Shown here piece after piece: positions 5,652 through 49,354 of a stretch of 64,000 nt of DNA. This DNA is from Streptacidiphilus sp. ASG 303. GTDB lineage: Bacteria > Actinomycetota > Actinomycetes > Streptomycetales > Streptomycetaceae. The notes below the pieces were generated by a model. The model was given only the letters and a program-made list of their open reading frames with translations, searched no databases and was not told where the DNA came from. A program made the translations under genes and the position numbers. Location: positions 1-64,000 of the forward strand of contig NZ_JAJLRA010000008.1 in the NCBI RefSeq assembly GCF_020991365.1, given 5' to 3'. The number at the start of each line of letters is the position of its first letter. The first letter of the stretch is position 1.

Positions 5652-5668
5652 GAACGGTGGTGCCCTTG

Positions 5669-5741
<73 letters not shown>

Positions 5742-38361: not shown

Positions 38362-38370
38362 TACCGCATG

Positions 38371-38443
38371 TGCGCCGCCAGGGACTCGAACCCCGAACCC
38401 GCTGGTTAAGAGCCAGCTGCTCTGCCAGTTGAGCTAGCGGCGC
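38371..38443 (-). tRNA. tRNA-Lys (CUU), copy 2
   Basis: This is the same 73-base cloverleaf as copies 3 and 4, with anticodon loop CTCTTAA and a G-C pair at 31-39. CCA is not encoded. It is followed at once by its own hairpin terminator. Confidence 0.97.
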
Positions 38444-41599: not shown

Positions 41600-41610
41600 G
41601 TCCTGCACAG

Positions 41611-41683
41611 TGCGCCGCCAGGGACTCGAACCCCGAACCCGCTGGTTAAGAGCCAGCTGCTCTGCCAGTTGAGCTAGCGGCGC
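41611..41683 (-). tRNA. tRNA-Lys (CUU), copy 3
   Basis: A 73-base cloverleaf identical to copies 2 and 4. Anticodon CUU, no encoded CCA, own terminator. Confidence 0.97.
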
Positions 41684-43134: not shown

Positions 43135-43142
43135 CCGTTGTG

Positions 43143-43215
43143 TGCGCCGCCAGGGACTCGAACCCCGAACCCGCTGGTTAAGAGCCAGCTGCTCTGCCAG
43201 TTGAGCTAGCGGCGC
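43143..43215 (-). tRNA. tRNA-Lys (CUU), copy 4
   Basis: A 73-base cloverleaf identical to copies 2 and 3. Anticodon CUU, no encoded CCA. A minus-strand gene of unknown function ends 19 bases upstream of it in transcription order. Confidence 0.97.
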
Positions 43216-43233
43216 TCACCGACACCGCAGACT

Positions 43234-43812
43234 CTAGCAGTCGGCCCCCTCCGACTGAAATCGGTTCTCCCCGCGCGCCGGGAGCATGCGCTCCCGGGCC
43301 GTGCGCCGGGCGGCGCGCATGCAGGCGCGCAGCAGCACCCCCGCGTCCGGGAGCCACGGCTCCCGCTGGTCCGGGGCGACGATCCAGCGCCCCGAGCCGA
43401 GCCCGGGGGAGTCGGGGGCGTCGACCATGCGCTGCAGCGGGGGCACGGTCACGGCGTCGCCCGCACCGTGGCAGAGCGCCGCGGGAGTGCCGGGGCCCCA
43501 CTCCTCCCAGCGCAGCAGCGGGCTCAGCCGCTCGGCGGTGCCGGGCCGGGCGAAGAGCAGCAGCCGGCCCCGGTAGGAGGCGGCGGGTCCGCATCCGGGC
43601 CCGGTCGTCCACAGCTCCTCGAGGACACGCCGCCCCGGCAGCCCCGGCAGGCTGACCACGTCGAAGACGCGGCCGCAGGGCAGGACGGTGGCGGCCCAGG
43701 GGCGTTCCCGCCACAGGGCCTGGATGCTGCGCGGGTACTCGCTCGCGGACGCCAGCCAGGCCTCTCCGGCCACGGTGACGTACTCCACGGATTCATACGT
43801 CCAGATGTCCAC
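43234..43812 (-). CDS. primase/polymerase N-terminal-like protein (hypothetical)
   Basis: A 192-residue protein. WLASASEYPRSIQALWRERPWAATVLPCGRVFDVVSLPGLPGRRVLEEL, GRLLLFARPGTAERL and LCHGAGDAVTVPPL follow the order of segments seen in Streptomyces proteins annotated as bifunctional DNA primase/polymerase N-terminal domain. The catalytic acidic residues are not evident, so it may be a degenerate, regulatory version. The GTG at 43812 (VDIWTYESVEYV) is chosen for a TACATC hexamer shortly upstream and the loss of codon bias before it. The start is uncertain. Confidence 0.6.
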   Translation of the reverse strand: MDIWTYESVEYVTVAGEAWLASASEYPRSIQALWRERPWAATVLPCGRVFDVVSLPGLPGRRVLEELWTTGPGCGPAASYRGRLLLFARPGTAERLSPLLRWEEWGPGTPAALCHGAGDAVTVPPLQRMVDAPDSPGLGSGRWIVAPDQREPWLPDAGVLLRACMRAARRTARERMLPARGENRFQSEGADC

Positions 43813-44125: not shown

Positions 44126-44497
44126 TCACTCCGCCGTGCGCCCCTGCTTCTGCAGGACGCGCCCGTACTCGACCATCTTGGCGGCGTAGTCCGGCGTCCA
44201 GTCCGCGCGGTCGGCGATCTCGGCGCAGCTCAGCGCGTCGAAGCGGCGCGGGTCGGCCAGTTCGGCGGCGGCCACCGCCTGGAAGTCGGTGGCCCGCTCC
44301 GCCGCGGCCCGGAAGGCGAGGGCCAGTTCGGTCGAGCGGCGTAGCAGCTCCCCCGGGTCCTCGATCGACTCCAGGTCGAAGAAGTGCTCGGCCTCGGCCT
44401 CGCCCGCGCGCGGTTCGAAGAGCAGCGGGGCCGGGCGGAACCGCCGGGCGGCTCCTGCGCCCTCCGCAGAGCGCTGGCGGTCGGCCGGGTCGGACAT
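44126..44497 (-). CDS. hypothetical protein (123 aa)
   Basis: A 123-residue soluble protein without recognised family. After a disordered start it reads HFFDLESIEDPGELLRRSTELALAFRAAAERATDFQAVAAAELADPRRFD, which should be long amphipathic helices, and ends DWTPDYAAKMVEYGRVLQKQGRTAE. GGAGG lies 5 bases before the ATG. It does not overlap its neighbours. Confidence 0.65.
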   Translation of the reverse strand: MSDPADRQRSAEGAGAARRFRPAPLLFEPRAGEAEAEHFFDLESIEDPGELLRRSTELALAFRAAAERATDFQAVAAAELADPRRFDALSCAEIADRADWTPDYAAKMVEYGRVLQKQGRTAE

Positions 44498-44762
44498 GGG
44501 CACCTCCATGGGGTGGCGGGGCGGGTTCCTGCGGACACGTCGAGTGGCCGATCCGCCGGACGTGCCTGATCCGGCGTCGGCCGTGACGCGCAGGGGCGAC
44601 GCAGGCACAACGGCTCACCCCCACGGTGGTATTCCTCGCCGGGTGCCGCCGTATGCGCGGCGCGCGCCGGTACGGCGGGCGGCCCGGCGCACAGGGCCTC
44701 CCGGCGCGCGGGGGAGCGGCGCCCGCCCCGCCCCCACCCGCCCCGCCGCCCCGCCGCCCGGC

Positions 44763-46115
44763 TCACCGCAGGCCGACGCGGTGCTCGGCCAGGTGTGCCA
44801 GGACGGCGTGGTTCGCCTCCCAGCCGTCGGGGAACTTCACGCTCACGCCCAGCTGCACCGGCTCGGTCGACGGGTGCTCGTCCAGCAGTTCGGCGATGCC
44901 GGCCCGTGCCACCACGATGCAGGCGTGCCGGTGCCGGGAGGCCAGCACGCACAGCCGCCCCGTCTCCAGGTGGAAGGCGGTGGCGTCCGGGCGGCCGGAC
45001 AGCGGGTGCAGCACCACGGTCACGTCGTACTCGCGCCCCTGGAGCCGGTTGGCGGTGTCCACGGTGACGGCGGGGCCCGGCGACCCGTCGACGGGGACGC
45101 CCAGGCCGGTCAGGGCGGCCCGGACGGCGGCGGCCTGGTCCCGGTGGGCGGTGCCGACCGCGATCCGGTCGGCGGTGACCGGCGCCGTGCCCTTCTCGGA
45201 GACGGCGGCCAGGCCGCGGTCCAGCAGCCGCCGCACGGTCCGCGCCACGACGTGCACGGCCTCGGGGTCGGTCCGCACGGTGTGCCGGGCAGGAAGCTCC
45301 AGCAGCCCCCAGCCCGACTCGGCGGCCTCGTCGATCACCGCGTCCACCGGCCCGCCGTCGCCCGCCGCGCCCACGGTGAGGCGCCGGTCGCCCTCGCCGG
45401 TGCCGGAGCGGAACGGCGTGAACGGGTAGAACGCCCGCGAGACCAGCCCCGCCGCCGAGTACGGCAGCCGCCAGGAGACCGGCAGGTTGTGCGGGCGGAT
45501 GCCGGGGTTGTGGTCGAGGAGCGCGGTGACCGCACTGCGCGAGGGGTCCCAGGACAGGCCCGCCCACTGGTCGGTGCCGACCACGGTGAACGGGTCGAGC
45601 TGCCCGGGGTCGCCCACGAACAGCGCCCGCTCGAAGAGCCGCGCCACGGCCAGCAGCGCGTCGGACCGCATCTGGTACGCCTCGTCGACGATGGCGTGCC
45701 GCCACGGATCGACGTCCTTGACCCACTGCCACTTGGCGGCGGTGGAGACCACCACCTGCTGCTCGGCGAGGTCGCCGATCCGGGGCGAGGCGGTGACCCC
45801 CGCGTGCCGCAGCGCCTCCGGCGCGGGCCGGCCGTCGCTGCTGTGCAGGCGGCCCACCGGCAGGTCGGGGGCGGCCGTGGCGAGCCGGTCCACCAGGTCG
45901 TCGACCTGGCTGTTGGTCTGCGCCACGATCATCAGCCGCTCGCCGGCGGCGACCAGCTCGCGGGCCGCACGCACGACGAGGGTGGACTTGCCGGCGCCGG
46001 GCGGGGAGTCGACCACCACGCCGCGCTCGGTGCCGGAGAGCACGGCGGCGAGGATCTCGGCGGTGACCCGGTCGGCGGCCGCCCCGGGGGAGGCGGTGGG
46101 GTCGGCGGGGTTCAC
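44763..46115 (-). CDS. SF1 (Upf1/Dna2-like) AAA helicase
   Basis: A 450-residue superfamily 1 helicase. VVVDSPPGAGKSTLVVRAA is Walker A, MIVAQTNSQVDDLVDRLA motif Ia, HAIVDEAYQM Walker B (DEAY), ALFVGDPGQLDPF motif III, VTVDTANRLQGREYDVTVVL motif V and LASRHRHACIVVA motif VI. The order matches Upf1/Dna2-type SF1B helicases, but motifs II and VI are atypical. The GTG at 46115 lies 7 bases after the stop of the upstream unknown gene, preceded by GGGAG. It is last in the operon with that gene and the RecB-type nuclease. Confidence 0.88.
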   Translation of the reverse strand: MNPADPTASPGAAADRVTAEILAAVLSGTERGVVVDSPPGAGKSTLVVRAARELVAAGERLMIVAQTNSQVDDLVDRLATAAPDLPVGRLHSSDGRPAPEALRHAGVTASPRIGDLAEQQVVVSTAAKWQWVKDVDPWRHAIVDEAYQMRSDALLAVARLFERALFVGDPGQLDPFTVVGTDQWAGLSWDPSRSAVTALLDHNPGIRPHNLPVSWRLPYSAAGLVSRAFYPFTPFRSGTGEGDRRLTVGAAGDGGPVDAVIDEAAESGWGLLELPARHTVRTDPEAVHVVARTVRRLLDRGLAAVSEKGTAPVTADRIAVGTAHRDQAAAVRAALTGLGVPVDGSPGPAVTVDTANRLQGREYDVTVVLHPLSGRPDATAFHLETGRLCVLASRHRHACIVVARAGIAELLDEHPSTEPVQLGVSVKFPDGWEANHAVLAHLAEHRVGLR

Positions 46116-46122
46116 GGTCGGG

Positions 46123-47793
46123 CTACTCCCATTCCTCGTCGGCCGCGGCGGCCGCGGCCGGACCGCCGGTGTGCGGACCGCCGGTGTGCGGCCCGCCGGG
46201 GCGCGGGCCGGGCACGGCGGAGGCCGAGCCGGGCGGACCGCCGTGCGTCCAGGGGGTGTTTTGCGGGTCGGGCAGCGGCGCGGCCTGCCGCACGGAGAGC
46301 TCGAACAGGGTGAAGCAGACCCGGTCGCCGGGCTGCGGCACCGTGCCCGGCTCGGGCTCCCTCCGCCGCCCCATCCCCGAGGTGAGGCGCAGCACGACGG
46401 TGCCCTCGGCGGGGTCGTGCCGCACGACCTCGGCCTTCTGCGCGGCGGGCGCCGCCCCGTCCTCGCCCGGCGGCCCCCACACCCGGTGCACCTCCCGGCC
46501 GGGGTCGGCGTGCGGGCGGTCGCCGGTGCGCACGGTGACCAGCGGCCGGGGCTTGGGGGTGCGGCCCGAGGTGTCGTACGCCGCCTCGACGGCCTCCACG
46601 GTCCCGGCGAAGGCCTCGCCGGAGAGGCGGTGCTCGGCCATCGCCAGCGGGTCGTCCAGGGCCTCCTGGAGGTCCAGCCTCGCCTGCTCGCGCTCGCGCT
46701 GCGCCAGCTTGCGGGCGGCGGTGACCGCGTCGTCGAACCGGGGCTGCGGCGGCTCCCCGGCGGCGAGCCGCTCGCGGTGGCCGGTGTAGGACCAGCGGTC
46801 GCCCTCCCACCGCTCCGCCACACGGGCGCCGGGCGGCAGCGCGCGCAGCAGGTCGAGGCCCCGCCAGACCTGGTCCCAGGTGGGCCGCAGCACCTGCTCC
46901 AGGAGGCCGCGGACCTCGTCGGCGGTCCGCCGCACGTGGGCCTCCGCCCGTGCCGCCTCACCGGGCGGGGCCGCGCGCAGGGCCGCACGGGCGGCGTCGT
47001 GGCGGGCGACGGCGGGGCCGAGCAGCTTCTCGTCGAAGCGGGGGTCGGTGGCCGGTCCGGCGGGCGGGCAGTGCAGCTGTCCGCGCCCGTCGCGGGCGGA
47101 CTCGGCGTACCGGGCGGCCTCGGCGCCGCCCAGACCGGGCGGCGGGGCGATCCAGGCGAGCAGGGCGCCCAGGTGCTGGTCCTCCAGGTGGGACTGGCCG
47201 GTGGCCCAGTGGCGGCCGAGCAGCGCCGTCATGGCGAGCAGCATCGAGGAGCCGGGCACCTCGGCGCGCTCCCGCAGGTGGGTGAGCCAGCGGCCGAGCA
47301 GCGGCACCCGGCTCGGCACGGGGTAGGGCCCGGCGTCCGCGTCGTCGGCGGTGCGGCGGAACCGCGTGGAGCGGCCGAGCAGGCCCAGGTGGTGGACGCC
47401 CGCGCTGTTGGGGACGACCAGCTGCGGGGCGTCCGCGCACAGCTCGCGCACCACGGGGAGCCGCTCCCCGGTCTCCGGGTCCTTCTCGGTGCCCTCGACC
47501 TGCTCGGTCTCCTCGCCGTAGCCCTCCAGGTAGGGCAGCAGGTCGCCGGCGAGCGCCGCGAGGAAGGCGAAGCGCTGGTCGCGGTCGAGGGGCTGCGGCA
47601 CCACGTGGAGCCGCGGTGCGTCGCGGTCGGTGCCGAGCATGGCCGCGAGCGGTGCGCCGTCCTCGCCGGCGGCGGCGAGCGGCACGACGACCATGGGGCG
47701 GTCGGAGAGGTGGCGGTGCCGGACGGTCGCCAGCGGCTGCGCCCGGTCCTGGTGCACGGCCTCCAGCCGGGCGAGGGTGGTCAGGAGGCTCAC
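46123..47793 (-). CDS. unknown protein of nuclease-helicase operon (556 aa)
   Basis: A 556-residue protein with no family that I can name. The N-terminal half is globular (LLTTLARLEAVHQDRAQPLATV, DRDQRFAFLAALAGDLLPYLEGY, SSMLLAMTALLGRHWATG). The middle has long charged helices (FDDAVTAARKLAQREREQARLDLQEAL) that may be coiled coil. The C-terminal part has strands such as EVVRHDPAEGTVVLRLTSGMGRR, resembling a small beta-barrel. It overlaps the nuclease gene by four bases (GTGA) and sits 7 bases before the helicase, so it is probably the third subunit of the same machine. Confidence 0.75.
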   Translation of the reverse strand: MSLLTTLARLEAVHQDRAQPLATVRHRHLSDRPMVVVPLAAAGEDGAPLAAMLGTDRDAPRLHVVPQPLDRDQRFAFLAALAGDLLPYLEGYGEETEQVEGTEKDPETGERLPVVRELCADAPQLVVPNSAGVHHLGLLGRSTRFRRTADDADAGPYPVPSRVPLLGRWLTHLRERAEVPGSSMLLAMTALLGRHWATGQSHLEDQHLGALLAWIAPPPGLGGAEAARYAESARDGRGQLHCPPAGPATDPRFDEKLLGPAVARHDAARAALRAAPPGEAARAEAHVRRTADEVRGLLEQVLRPTWDQVWRGLDLLRALPPGARVAERWEGDRWSYTGHRERLAAGEPPQPRFDDAVTAARKLAQREREQARLDLQEALDDPLAMAEHRLSGEAFAGTVEAVEAAYDTSGRTPKPRPLVTVRTGDRPHADPGREVHRVWGPPGEDGAAPAAQKAEVVRHDPAEGTVVLRLTSGMGRRREPEPGTVPQPGDRVCFTLFELSVRQAAPLPDPQNTPWTHGGPPGSASAVPGPRPGGPHTGGPHTGGPAAAAAADEEWE

Positions 47794-49076
47794 GGGCGCA
47801 GGCCCCCCTCGGCGAGGGCCTCGGCGCGCAGCGCGGCCGCCCGGGCGAGGCGGGCGGCGGCCTCGTCCACGGCGTCCGCCGGACCGCCGGCGCCGCCGTC
47901 GGCCGGGCCGCCGTCGTGGGCCGGGCCGCCGCCGTCCCGGGCGCCGCGGCCCGGGACGCCGCCCGCCGCCGCGGCCAGGGCCCCGCCGACGGTCCGCAGG
48001 GAGCCCAGCTCGCCGCGGACGGAGCGGCCCAGCTGTCCGACCGCGTCCGCGCAGCGGGCCTCCCGGCGGCAGTGGAAGCCCAGTTCGCAGGTGGACAGGC
48101 AGTCGGGGGCGTAGGCGGCGGGCACGGCGGCGACCGCGTCGGCGAGCTGCCCGTCGGTGCGGGCGGGCGTGCCGTCGTCGGCGGTGGACAGGTCGAAGCC
48201 CGCGTCGGCGGGGAGCGCGTCGAGGATGCGGTCGATGCGGGTCATCCGCCGCAGCTGGCGGCGGGTGACCGCCAGCTCCCGGCGGACGTCGACGACGGCG
48301 GCGGTGGGCCGGTTGGAGAAGTCCCGGGGGCAGACCAGCAGCACCGTGGGGTCGGGCGCCGCGGCCGGGCCCTCGGGCTCGTCGTAGGGGCCGTCCCCCG
48401 GCTTGACGCCGGCCAGCTCGGCCGCGGCCTCGCGCAGCGCCAGGACGTACACGGCCGCCTGGCGGGCCGCCGCGCCGACCTTGGCGGGGTCGGCGGAGCC
48501 GTCCAGGATCGGGAAGGACTTGATCTCCACGACCGTCCAGCGGCCGTCGGGGCGCACCACCACGGCGTCGGGCTCCAGGTGGGCGGGGGAGCCGGCGACG
48601 TCCAGGCGGAGCATGGGGTGGTCCAGCAGCGTCCAGCGGCCGGGCCGGGCGGCGGCCTCGGCCAGCGCCTGCCGGGTCCGCTCGGCCCGCACCGCCGTAC
48701 CGGCCCGCGGCAGCAGGTCCGGTACGGCGACCCCGTCCGCGTCCGGCTCCGGCAGGCCGAGGTGGCGCTGGAGGAGGAGCAGCAGCTCGGCGTACCCGTC
48801 GGCCTTGACCCGGGCCTCGAAGACGTTGCCGCGGGCGATGGCGAACGGCGACCGGCCGAAGGGCGCGGGACTGCCCAGGCGCTCGGCGAGGACCGTCTTG
48901 TCGACCCCGGCGGCGTCCAGCAGGGCGCGGCGGCGGCAGCCGGGGTTGGCGGCGAGCGCGGCGAGGGCGCGGGCGTCGAGGCTGCGCTGCGGCGCGGGGC
49001 CGCGCAGCCCGGCGAGCCGCTGCGCGGGGGGCTCGGCGGACCCGTGGGACGCGTACCCGGGGTGCGAGTCGTTCAT
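47790..49076 (-). CDS. RecB/Cas4-type PD-(D/E)XK nuclease with Cys cluster
   Basis: A 428-residue nuclease. ARGNVFEARV (residues 81-90) is the helix common to Cas4/RecB nucleases. HLEPDAVVV (Asp170), TVVEIKSF (Glu184, Lys186) and RQAAVY (Gln206, Tyr210) make the active site and QxxxY motif. CLSTCELGFHCRREARC near residue 350, plus Cys47, resembles the 4Fe-4S clamp of AddB, Cas4 and Dna2. It should be a DNA exonuclease or flap nuclease working with the helicase downstream. AAGACT lies 10 bases before the ATG, with no ribosome-binding site. Confidence 0.87.
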   Translation of the reverse strand: MNDSHPGYASHGSAEPPAQRLAGLRGPAPQRSLDARALAALAANPGCRRRALLDAAGVDKTVLAERLGSPAPFGRSPFAIARGNVFEARVKADGYAELLLLLQRHLGLPEPDADGVAVPDLLPRAGTAVRAERTRQALAEAAARPGRWTLLDHPMLRLDVAGSPAHLEPDAVVVRPDGRWTVVEIKSFPILDGSADPAKVGAAARQAAVYVLALREAAAELAGVKPGDGPYDEPEGPAAAPDPTVLLVCPRDFSNRPTAAVVDVRRELAVTRRQLRRMTRIDRILDALPADAGFDLSTADDGTPARTDGQLADAVAAVPAAYAPDCLSTCELGFHCRREARCADAVGQLGRSVRGELGSLRTVGGALAAAAGGVPGRGARDGGGPAHDGGPADGGAGGPADAVDEAAARLARAAALRAEALAEGGLRP

Positions 49077-49354
49077 GGTGCGCGCCAGTCTTGCATCCGC
49101 CGCCGACAAACGGGCGCGGCGGCCCGGATCCGGCCCGTTCCCGCGGCAGGGCACGGCAGTTACCGCCCGGGCGTGCCGTCCGCCACCGGGCCGGGGGGCC
49201 GGCCGGCGGGCCGTCTGACGGTCCGTCCCGTCCGCGCGCCGCGCCGGACGGCCGTGTCCCCTGACGGGTCGGCGGTTTGCCCCCGTCGTCCGCTCCTCGC
49301 TTTGATGCCGGGGGCGGCGGGTCGCCGTCCCGTGCGGCGAGGAATGCGGTGGAC

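Follow-up and report, generated by a model that had tools for sequence, protein, structure and literature searches.

What kind of machine is encoded by three tightly coupled genes of Streptacidiphilus sp. ASG 303 that join a nuclease and a helicase through a protein of no named family? The genes lie in a stretch of 64,000 nucleotides (nt) of contig NZ_JAJLRA010000008.1 (positions 1 to 64,000; hereafter the window), where they and all window features described below are on the minus strand. In order, they encode a nuclease subunit (47790-49076; 428 amino acids (aa), ATG start), a middle or linker subunit (46123-47793; 556 aa, GTG start; 4-nt overlap with the nuclease gene) and a helicase subunit (44763-46115; 450 aa, GTG start; 7-nt gap after the middle gene). 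A sequence-only reading of the window had taken these three open reading frames (49076-44763), from their overlaps and 7-base spacing, as one translational unit and had called them a split Dna2/AddAB-like operon; frames and spacing were re-derived from the sequence, and the genes were also chosen by a codon-bias gene caller. Gene order is constant across 70 loci found by scanning genome contigs with the middle protein; in relatives, neighbouring genes usually overlap by 4 to 13 nt or are separated by very short gaps (larger gaps being partly due to automatic start-codon choice), and no fused trio genes occur among the open reading frames scanned at the loci. The trio is a conserved machine so far without a name, and no published description of it was found in the literature searched, which did not extend to preprints and most subscription papers. 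With a probability of roughly two in three, it is a damage-inducible, three-subunit, split Dna2-like end processor that has been reused in defence islands. Computation carries this argument through motifs, domain resemblance, colinearity, obligate co-occurrence, a promoter motif and gene contexts.

The nuclease subunit reads as an iron-sulfur (Fe-S) PD-(D/E)XK nuclease of the Cas4/AddB/Dna2 type. Its active site, D170...E184-x-K186...Q206xxxY210 (48447-48569), consists of the five residues previously claimed (Asp170, Glu184, Lys186, Gln206, and Tyr210), all of which are kept in 121 of 130 distinct nuclease rows. The putative N-terminal cluster ligand, C47 (48936-48938), is present in 128 of the 130 rows (the exceptions are one gap and one X), and the putative C-terminal ligands, C326-x3-C330-x5-C336 (48069-48101), in 126, the other four being gapped at that place. 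The cluster proposed earlier, an upstream cysteine with a C-x3-C-x5-C-x5-C array, is thus corrected to C47 plus C326/C330/C336, with the loss of its last member, C342 being found in just 40 rows; C249, in 113, is not universal. Judged from the alignment, the cysteines have a one-plus-three layout, as in AddB/Dna2-type nucleases. The nine rows with altered catalytic sites fall into two sets, either of which makes up one side of a branch with good support. Five are accessory copies that carry L184 and R186; the other four, from Sinosporangium, Acrocarpospora, a metagenome-assembled genome, and G275, have A or T at 184, with E at 206 in three of them and D170 also lost in Sinosporangium. All nine keep the four cysteines, and the presumed cluster is therefore more strongly constrained than catalysis. 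The fear that the nuclease motifs might not be conserved is unfounded overall and holds for two lineages, which have lost the catalytic Glu. At loci L063, L071, and L107 (and L064), where Glu184 is replaced by A or T and, in three of the four, Gln206 by Glu, the site may reflect either catalytic loss or a migrated active-site acid.

Family libraries gave the nuclease no name (only PDDEXK_1 at E 0.026 in Pfam and nothing in NCBIfam), no Cas4 family model matched in either library, so that its likeness to Cas4 is one of fold, and a sequence search of the PDB returned designed or unrelated proteins only. Its AlphaFold model (predicted local distance difference test score, pLDDT, 84.8; residues 1-11 below 50) aligns first, by VIA-align, with Cas4 (7mi4; Z 10.8, 199 residues, 4.2 Å), followed by EXO5 (Z 9.4), AdnA (8.4), AddA (8.3), AddB (7.6), and Dna2 (7.1). 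AddB, AdnA, Cas4, and EXO5 are thus among the closest folds, and their Fe-S cysteine layout resembles that of the trio nuclease. The motors of AddAB and AdnAB are of UvrD type, whereas Cas4 acts together with Cas1-Cas2 and EXO5 needs no motor. Model residues 32-345 align on Dna2 residues 125-412 (5eax), and in Dna2 an Fe-S cluster is described as stapling nuclease extensions 122-154 and 384-412 (PMC4716839); by analogy, C47 towards one end of the aligned range and C326-C336 towards the other are consistent with such a staple.

The helicase subunit is a superfamily 1B (SF1B) Dna2/Upf1-like RecA1-RecA2 motor. In Pfam it matches AAA_11/AAA_12 (AAA_11 at 4e-11; UvrD-helicase at just E 0.16), and a 14-sequence helicase profile found DNA2 as its best PDB match (8e-11; profile positions 38-395 of 445 on residues 648-1014), then IGHMBP2, then UPF1. 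G40, G42, K43, and T45 of its Walker A motif, PPGAGKST (45981-46004), are present in all 127 helicase rows, as is the Walker B motif, DEAY (45675-45686), the unusual box already pointed out from the sequence. Walker A starts at residue 38, so little chain precedes the motor.

The middle protein, described earlier as having no recognisable family, retains that status in sequence libraries and loses it in predicted structure, which resembles known folds. Nothing in Pfam or NCBIfam scored above cut-off, PHROGs (E 0.01) and PADLOC (E 1) gave no match, a sequence search of the PDB returned nothing credible, and the protein's model (pLDDT 86.1) found nothing at E 0.001 in a viral fold library. Residues 31-332 (46798-47703) have an RNase H/DEDD-exonuclease-like fold that resembles, at 4-8% identity and with VIA Z scores reaching 9.1, the 3'-5' exonuclease domain of family-B polymerases. 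There the catalytic DxE is not recognisable: the patterns shown have V-P-L-A or V-P-L-T at its expected place, residues 37-40. E204 and D205 are conserved at the expected third exonuclease motif (in our own reading of the motif register), and the domain is taken, from its model, as a degenerate exonuclease fold. Residues 353-515 (46249-46737) resemble the stalk and 1B beta-barrel of an Upf1-like helicase, aligning on IGHMBP2 residues 5-159 (4b3f; Z 10.2 over 132 residues). This region also aligns with IGHMBP2 4b3g (Z 9.3, 2.3 Å over 87 residues), SETX (Z 8.4), and Sen1 (Z 8.1), and residues 373-498 align on Dna2 460-567 (Z 7.7). The middle protein is therefore predicted from its model to supply the stalk and beta-barrel that are absent from the 450-aa helicase. 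Just at the end of this region, a TPWTHGGPP tail (residues 513-521; 46231-46257), invariant in a 31-row alignment, is a possible docking peptide. In loci L118-L121 the match to the middle gene is broken near model positions 95-119 by about 140-215 unmatched bases.

In Dna2, the stalk and barrel are reported to sit between nuclease and helicase (PMC4716839), and the Dna2 order of nuclease (125-412), barrel (460-567), and motor (648-1014) is that of genes one, two, and three. Since the segments map to the three genes in order, the trio is read as a Dna2-like protein divided among three chains, plus an additional RNase H-like domain. It shares with eukaryotic Dna2 the order nuclease, stalk/barrel (here predicted), SF1B motor, the best helicase sequence match, and an Fe-S-type nuclease with cysteines at its N-terminal and C-terminal ends; it differs in being three polypeptides, in the RNase H-like domain between nuclease and stalk, in its DEAY Walker B, and in that no Dna2-type N-terminal oligonucleotide-binding (OB) domain is recognised ahead of the nuclease, where residues 1-11 have pLDDT under 50. 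As Dna2 itself is a single chain, we class the trio as a variant working in the manner of Dna2 rather than as Dna2, and its domain reading is firmer than its physiology. The Dna2 part of the earlier name stands, by the helicase match, the nuclease fold, and the predicted stalk and barrel; the AddAB part holds for the nuclease fold and not for the motor, which is not of UvrD type. A rival reading in which the trio is an AddAB/AdnAB-like complex for resection of double-strand breaks, a UvrD-type motor-nuclease in pieces, could appeal to the fold match with the AdnA, AddA, and AddB nuclease domains (Z 7.6-8.4) and to the cysteines, which we take to follow the AddB-type layout. It is nevertheless very unlikely, given a Dna2/Upf1-like motor, a single nuclease, and a putative barrel and stalk of a kind found in the Upf1 branch.

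IGHMBP2, UPF1, and Senataxin also combine stalk, 1B barrel, and motor, as single chains with no nuclease gene encoded alongside. With Sen1, they are among the best matches of the trio, which would suit a complex that processes RNA or R-loops through an Upf1-like RNA helicase and a nuclease partner, as would the fact that one lineage adjoins a pPIWI-RE island, a system for which action on R-loops has been proposed (PMC3702460). This is highly improbable: by sequence the closest match is DNA2, the fold group of the nuclease consists mostly of nucleases acting on DNA ends, and the core promoter and SbcCD association described below point to DNA ends. Hardly more credible is descent by splitting from TM0106-type proteins (TIGR03491), RecB-like proteins fused to helicases, with which the trio has the motor family and overall idea in common. 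The helicases match (8e-15; hhalign 98%), and the fusions presumably have the same order of domain types, RecB-like, RNase H-like, helicase. The nuclease and middle protein, however, have no profile match to the fusions (best hmmsearch E 0.0058 and 0.6, respectively; hhalign probability <1%), and TIGR03491 (cut-off 97.45 bits) matches no trio protein and nothing across the whole genome.

If the trio is a split Dna2-like end processor, its parts would work as follows. We infer a complex in which a single strand would thread through the Fe-S-stapled nuclease of subunit 1; subunit 2 would connect the parts by its degenerate RNase H-like exonuclease domain followed by helical stalk and beta-barrel; and subunit 3 would be expected to move 5'-3' on single-stranded DNA. 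The copy at the conserved locus of the window (the core copy) would be made upon DNA damage from a promoter of the RecA-NDp/PafBC type and would trim or resect DNA ends and flaps for repair, its loss presumably having a repair phenotype. Accessory copies, found elsewhere, would process ends in a similar way next to SbcCD (Mre11-Rad50), in some cases following cleavage by Wadjet.

The three proteins occur together as an obligate set. Each, searched alone (limits of E 1e-5 for the middle protein, 1e-60 for the helicase, and 1e-20 for the nuclease), picked out one identical set of 48 among 296 genomes of the class, and the four class genomes with two middle proteins also hold two of each partner. 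Within the 70 loci, mostly in records named Kitasatospora, Streptomyces, or Streptacidiphilus (with one Saccharothrix, two Streptosporangiaceae (Sinosporangium and Acrocarpospora), and an actinobacterial metagenome-assembled genome), the window's middle protein was matched in 70, its nuclease in 68, and its helicase in 67, the absent matches falling where the contig breaks off. A phylum sample gave matches in 14 of 396 genomes, none outside the class; 141 of 150 genomes of one genus (that of genome G057, taken to be Streptomyces) have the middle protein. In one genus, two genomes (G196 and G095; loci L112/L114) keep nuclease and middle genes together with the helicase about 36 and 49 kb off, and G196 has a short broken helicase-like fragment between the pair and the distant helicase. 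In the same fetched stretches, the core copy is flanked upstream by a phosphatase and a TPR gene (matched in 62 of the 70 loci each) and downstream by two genes matched in 60 and 62; thus the core copy is unlikely to be a defence-island gene.

The nuclease gene of the window is preceded, 33 nt before its ATG, by a RecA-NDp/PafBC-like promoter element, TTGTCGGCG-N8-AAGACT (49087-49109), which matches the consensus given for RecA-NDp, tTGTCRgtg-8nt-TannnT (PMC5656591), at 10 of 12 positions and lacks the first T of the -10. RecA-NDp promoters are recorded in Streptomyces upstream of a UV-inducible gene (PMC5087735). No LexA-type box was found by two simple patterns within 400 nt upstream of the window nuclease. 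TTGTC[AG]G occurs in 67 of 139 upstream stretches, 66 of which show one motif ahead of the start, while L040 is an unrelated match. Scored against the 12 positions of the published consensus only, 61 of 91 core loci reach 10 or 11 (base shuffles, 0.26%), compared with 0 of 39 non-core and accessory loci at 10 or more upstream of the nuclease. Conservation of the motif as coding sequence would be argued against by its A/T at third codon positions, where these bases are rare in these genomes. The window's own genome (G000) holds the motif pattern 42 times, the trio's included, against 5 in a reversed control, an excess of about eightfold that marks out a candidate damage regulon, independent of LexA, in this member of the Streptomycetaceae. 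Of the 42 places, the 20 better-looking were taken and 10 of their 20 downstream proteins scanned, both by our own choice. Four were repair genes (RecA, UvrB, a DNA polymerase I (polA), and a beta-clamp (dnaN) homologue) and the others a sigma factor, an ABC transporter, a MoxR-type ATPase, a DUF4241 protein, and two proteins without family; as the ten were hand-chosen, the repair genes are examples of what may follow the motif and give no measure of frequency.

Several results weigh against the reading of the trio as a damage-inducible Dna2-like end processor. The likeness of the nuclease and middle protein to Dna2 is structural only, and in Foldseek neither model had a match reaching E 0.001. 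Cluster-free nucleases of the lambda-exonuclease and RecE types score Z 8.6-9.1 against the nuclease model, about level with EXO5 and higher than AddB or Dna2; Fe-S members are thus not picked out by fold, and it is their cysteines that single them out. For the middle protein, ferredoxin-reductase and siderophore-protein barrels top the Foldseek list, unrelated barrels reach Z 8.1-8.4, and the 4b3f match has a root-mean-square deviation of 6.4; the stalk and barrel reading is favoured because the stalk helices are included in the match, because of the gene order, and because the adjoining motor has no barrel. The middle protein is absent from 9 of the 150 genus genomes, 8 of them rated at least 90% complete, and so is dispensable. 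As for the promoter, none of the 61 high-scoring core promoters has the first T of the -10, 30 of the 91 core loci score below 10 (26 of them being recognisable variants at 7 to 9), and the initial search reported in the S. venezuelae LexA study did not find the mycobacterial PafBC motif conserved (PMC9380542).

The accessory copies bear on whether the trio is primarily a defence system that destroys phage or plasmid DNA, its core copy being a fixed defence locus. One accessory group has a divergent SbcD and a fourth gene, hyp0, before the nuclease in 11 of 11 loci, with SbcC also present where the stretch allows; no other locus among the 175 sequences compared has SbcD nearby. The group forms one side of a branch (97/91), joined by row L116, which has hyp0 and no SbcD in its stretch. 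Three of its 11 loci (L128, L129, and L168) continue directly into Wadjet JetA-D, with JetA, JetC, and JetD of L128 matching PADLOC type I models. The nucleases with L184 and R186 are accompanied in 5 of 5 loci by opposite-strand homologues of the pPIWI-RE REase and the pPIWI-RE domain-Z protein; these genes are 92-97% identical, so the near-identical loci are hardly independent. The pPIWI-RE gene itself was not seen at the five loci, and L162, the only one of them run through Pfam, has another PD-(D/E)XK protein too. Both settings favour a primary role in defence, as does the weak similarity of the helicase to the PLuB helicase and to MkoA, presumably a Mokosh protein. Such a role is nonetheless unlikely: the core copy lies amid conserved neighbours (60, 62, 62, and 62 of the 70 loci), is near-universal in its genus (141/150), and has a damage-type promoter motif. 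Viral contigs hold no relative of the middle protein or helicase, in a search that covered neither the nuclease nor the phage-record collection, and the middle protein occurs in 3 of 72,556 plasmid records, one of them of 11.9 Mb. Of the repair or defence role suggested from sequence, the core copy thus looks like genome maintenance, and a defence-island setting, unlikely for the core copy, is borne out for accessory copies by their SbcCD, Wadjet, and pPIWI-RE genes.

With the trio read as a split Dna2-like end processor, the SbcCD-linked group is like Mre11-Rad50 complexes adjoining a helicase-nuclease, here as a split trio plus a fourth gene. Mre11-Rad50-HerA-NurA in archaea and Mre11-Rad50 with Dna2 in eukaryotes are such pairings of a Mre11-Rad50 complex with a helicase-nuclease. 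A tentative extension, on balance doubtful, is that Actinobacteria hold a bacterial counterpart of the eukaryotic resection machinery of Mre11-Rad50 plus Dna2, in which a PafBC-controlled three-subunit Dna2 would be a core repair enzyme and a mobile SbcCD/fourth-subunit/split-Dna2 cassette would act as the DNA-end degrading arm of Wadjet and of other defence islands. hyp0 matched nothing in Pfam or PADLOC. Of 11 genomes tested for it, 8 gave no match, including that of the window and the four tested Streptomycetaceae without a second trio copy; in the tested genomes it was found only beside the trio, and it lies ahead of the trio also in Nonomuraea and in genomes of families f17 and f4. hyp0 (L128, 10721-11563, and orthologues) has a conserved SLRRDE...RPYY stretch and, by eye, a coiled-coil-like N-terminus. 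With stricter patterns, the RecA-NDp motif was absent upstream of hyp0 or the nuclease in the 42 loci, of 43 listed, where it could be looked for, some of them representing one place more than once.

Streptomyces chromosomes are linear and their ends unstable. In NBC_01244 an accessory copy sits about 13 kb short of the end of a linear plasmid, and in the single-contig 8.3-Mb genome of L167 about 7 kb separate the middle gene from the end; enrichment of Wadjet and Lamassu systems towards Streptomyces chromosome ends has been described (PMC10482375). If the trio is what it appears to be, a near-universal Dna2-like machine would fill a gap in bacterial end processing, one end processor would be seen reused in both repair and defence, and a natural three-part version would allow the Dna2 nuclease, scaffold, and motor to be studied apart. 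The promoter result also bears on a question that the S. venezuelae study leaves open: does Streptomyces respond to DNA damage by a route independent of RecA/LexA (PMC9380542)?

Downstream of the helicase, two candidate operon members may share the process of the trio: a 127-aa gene without family (44126-44509; no Pfam match; matched in 62 of the 70 loci) and a Prim-Pol domain gene (43234-43788; PF09250, 9e-9; matched in 60). The window also holds four tRNA-Lys(CTT) genes (38370-38443, 41610-41683, 43142-43215, and 5668-5741); the three at 38 to 43 kb do not differ in sequence, and G+C-rich inverted repeats are seen just beyond them.

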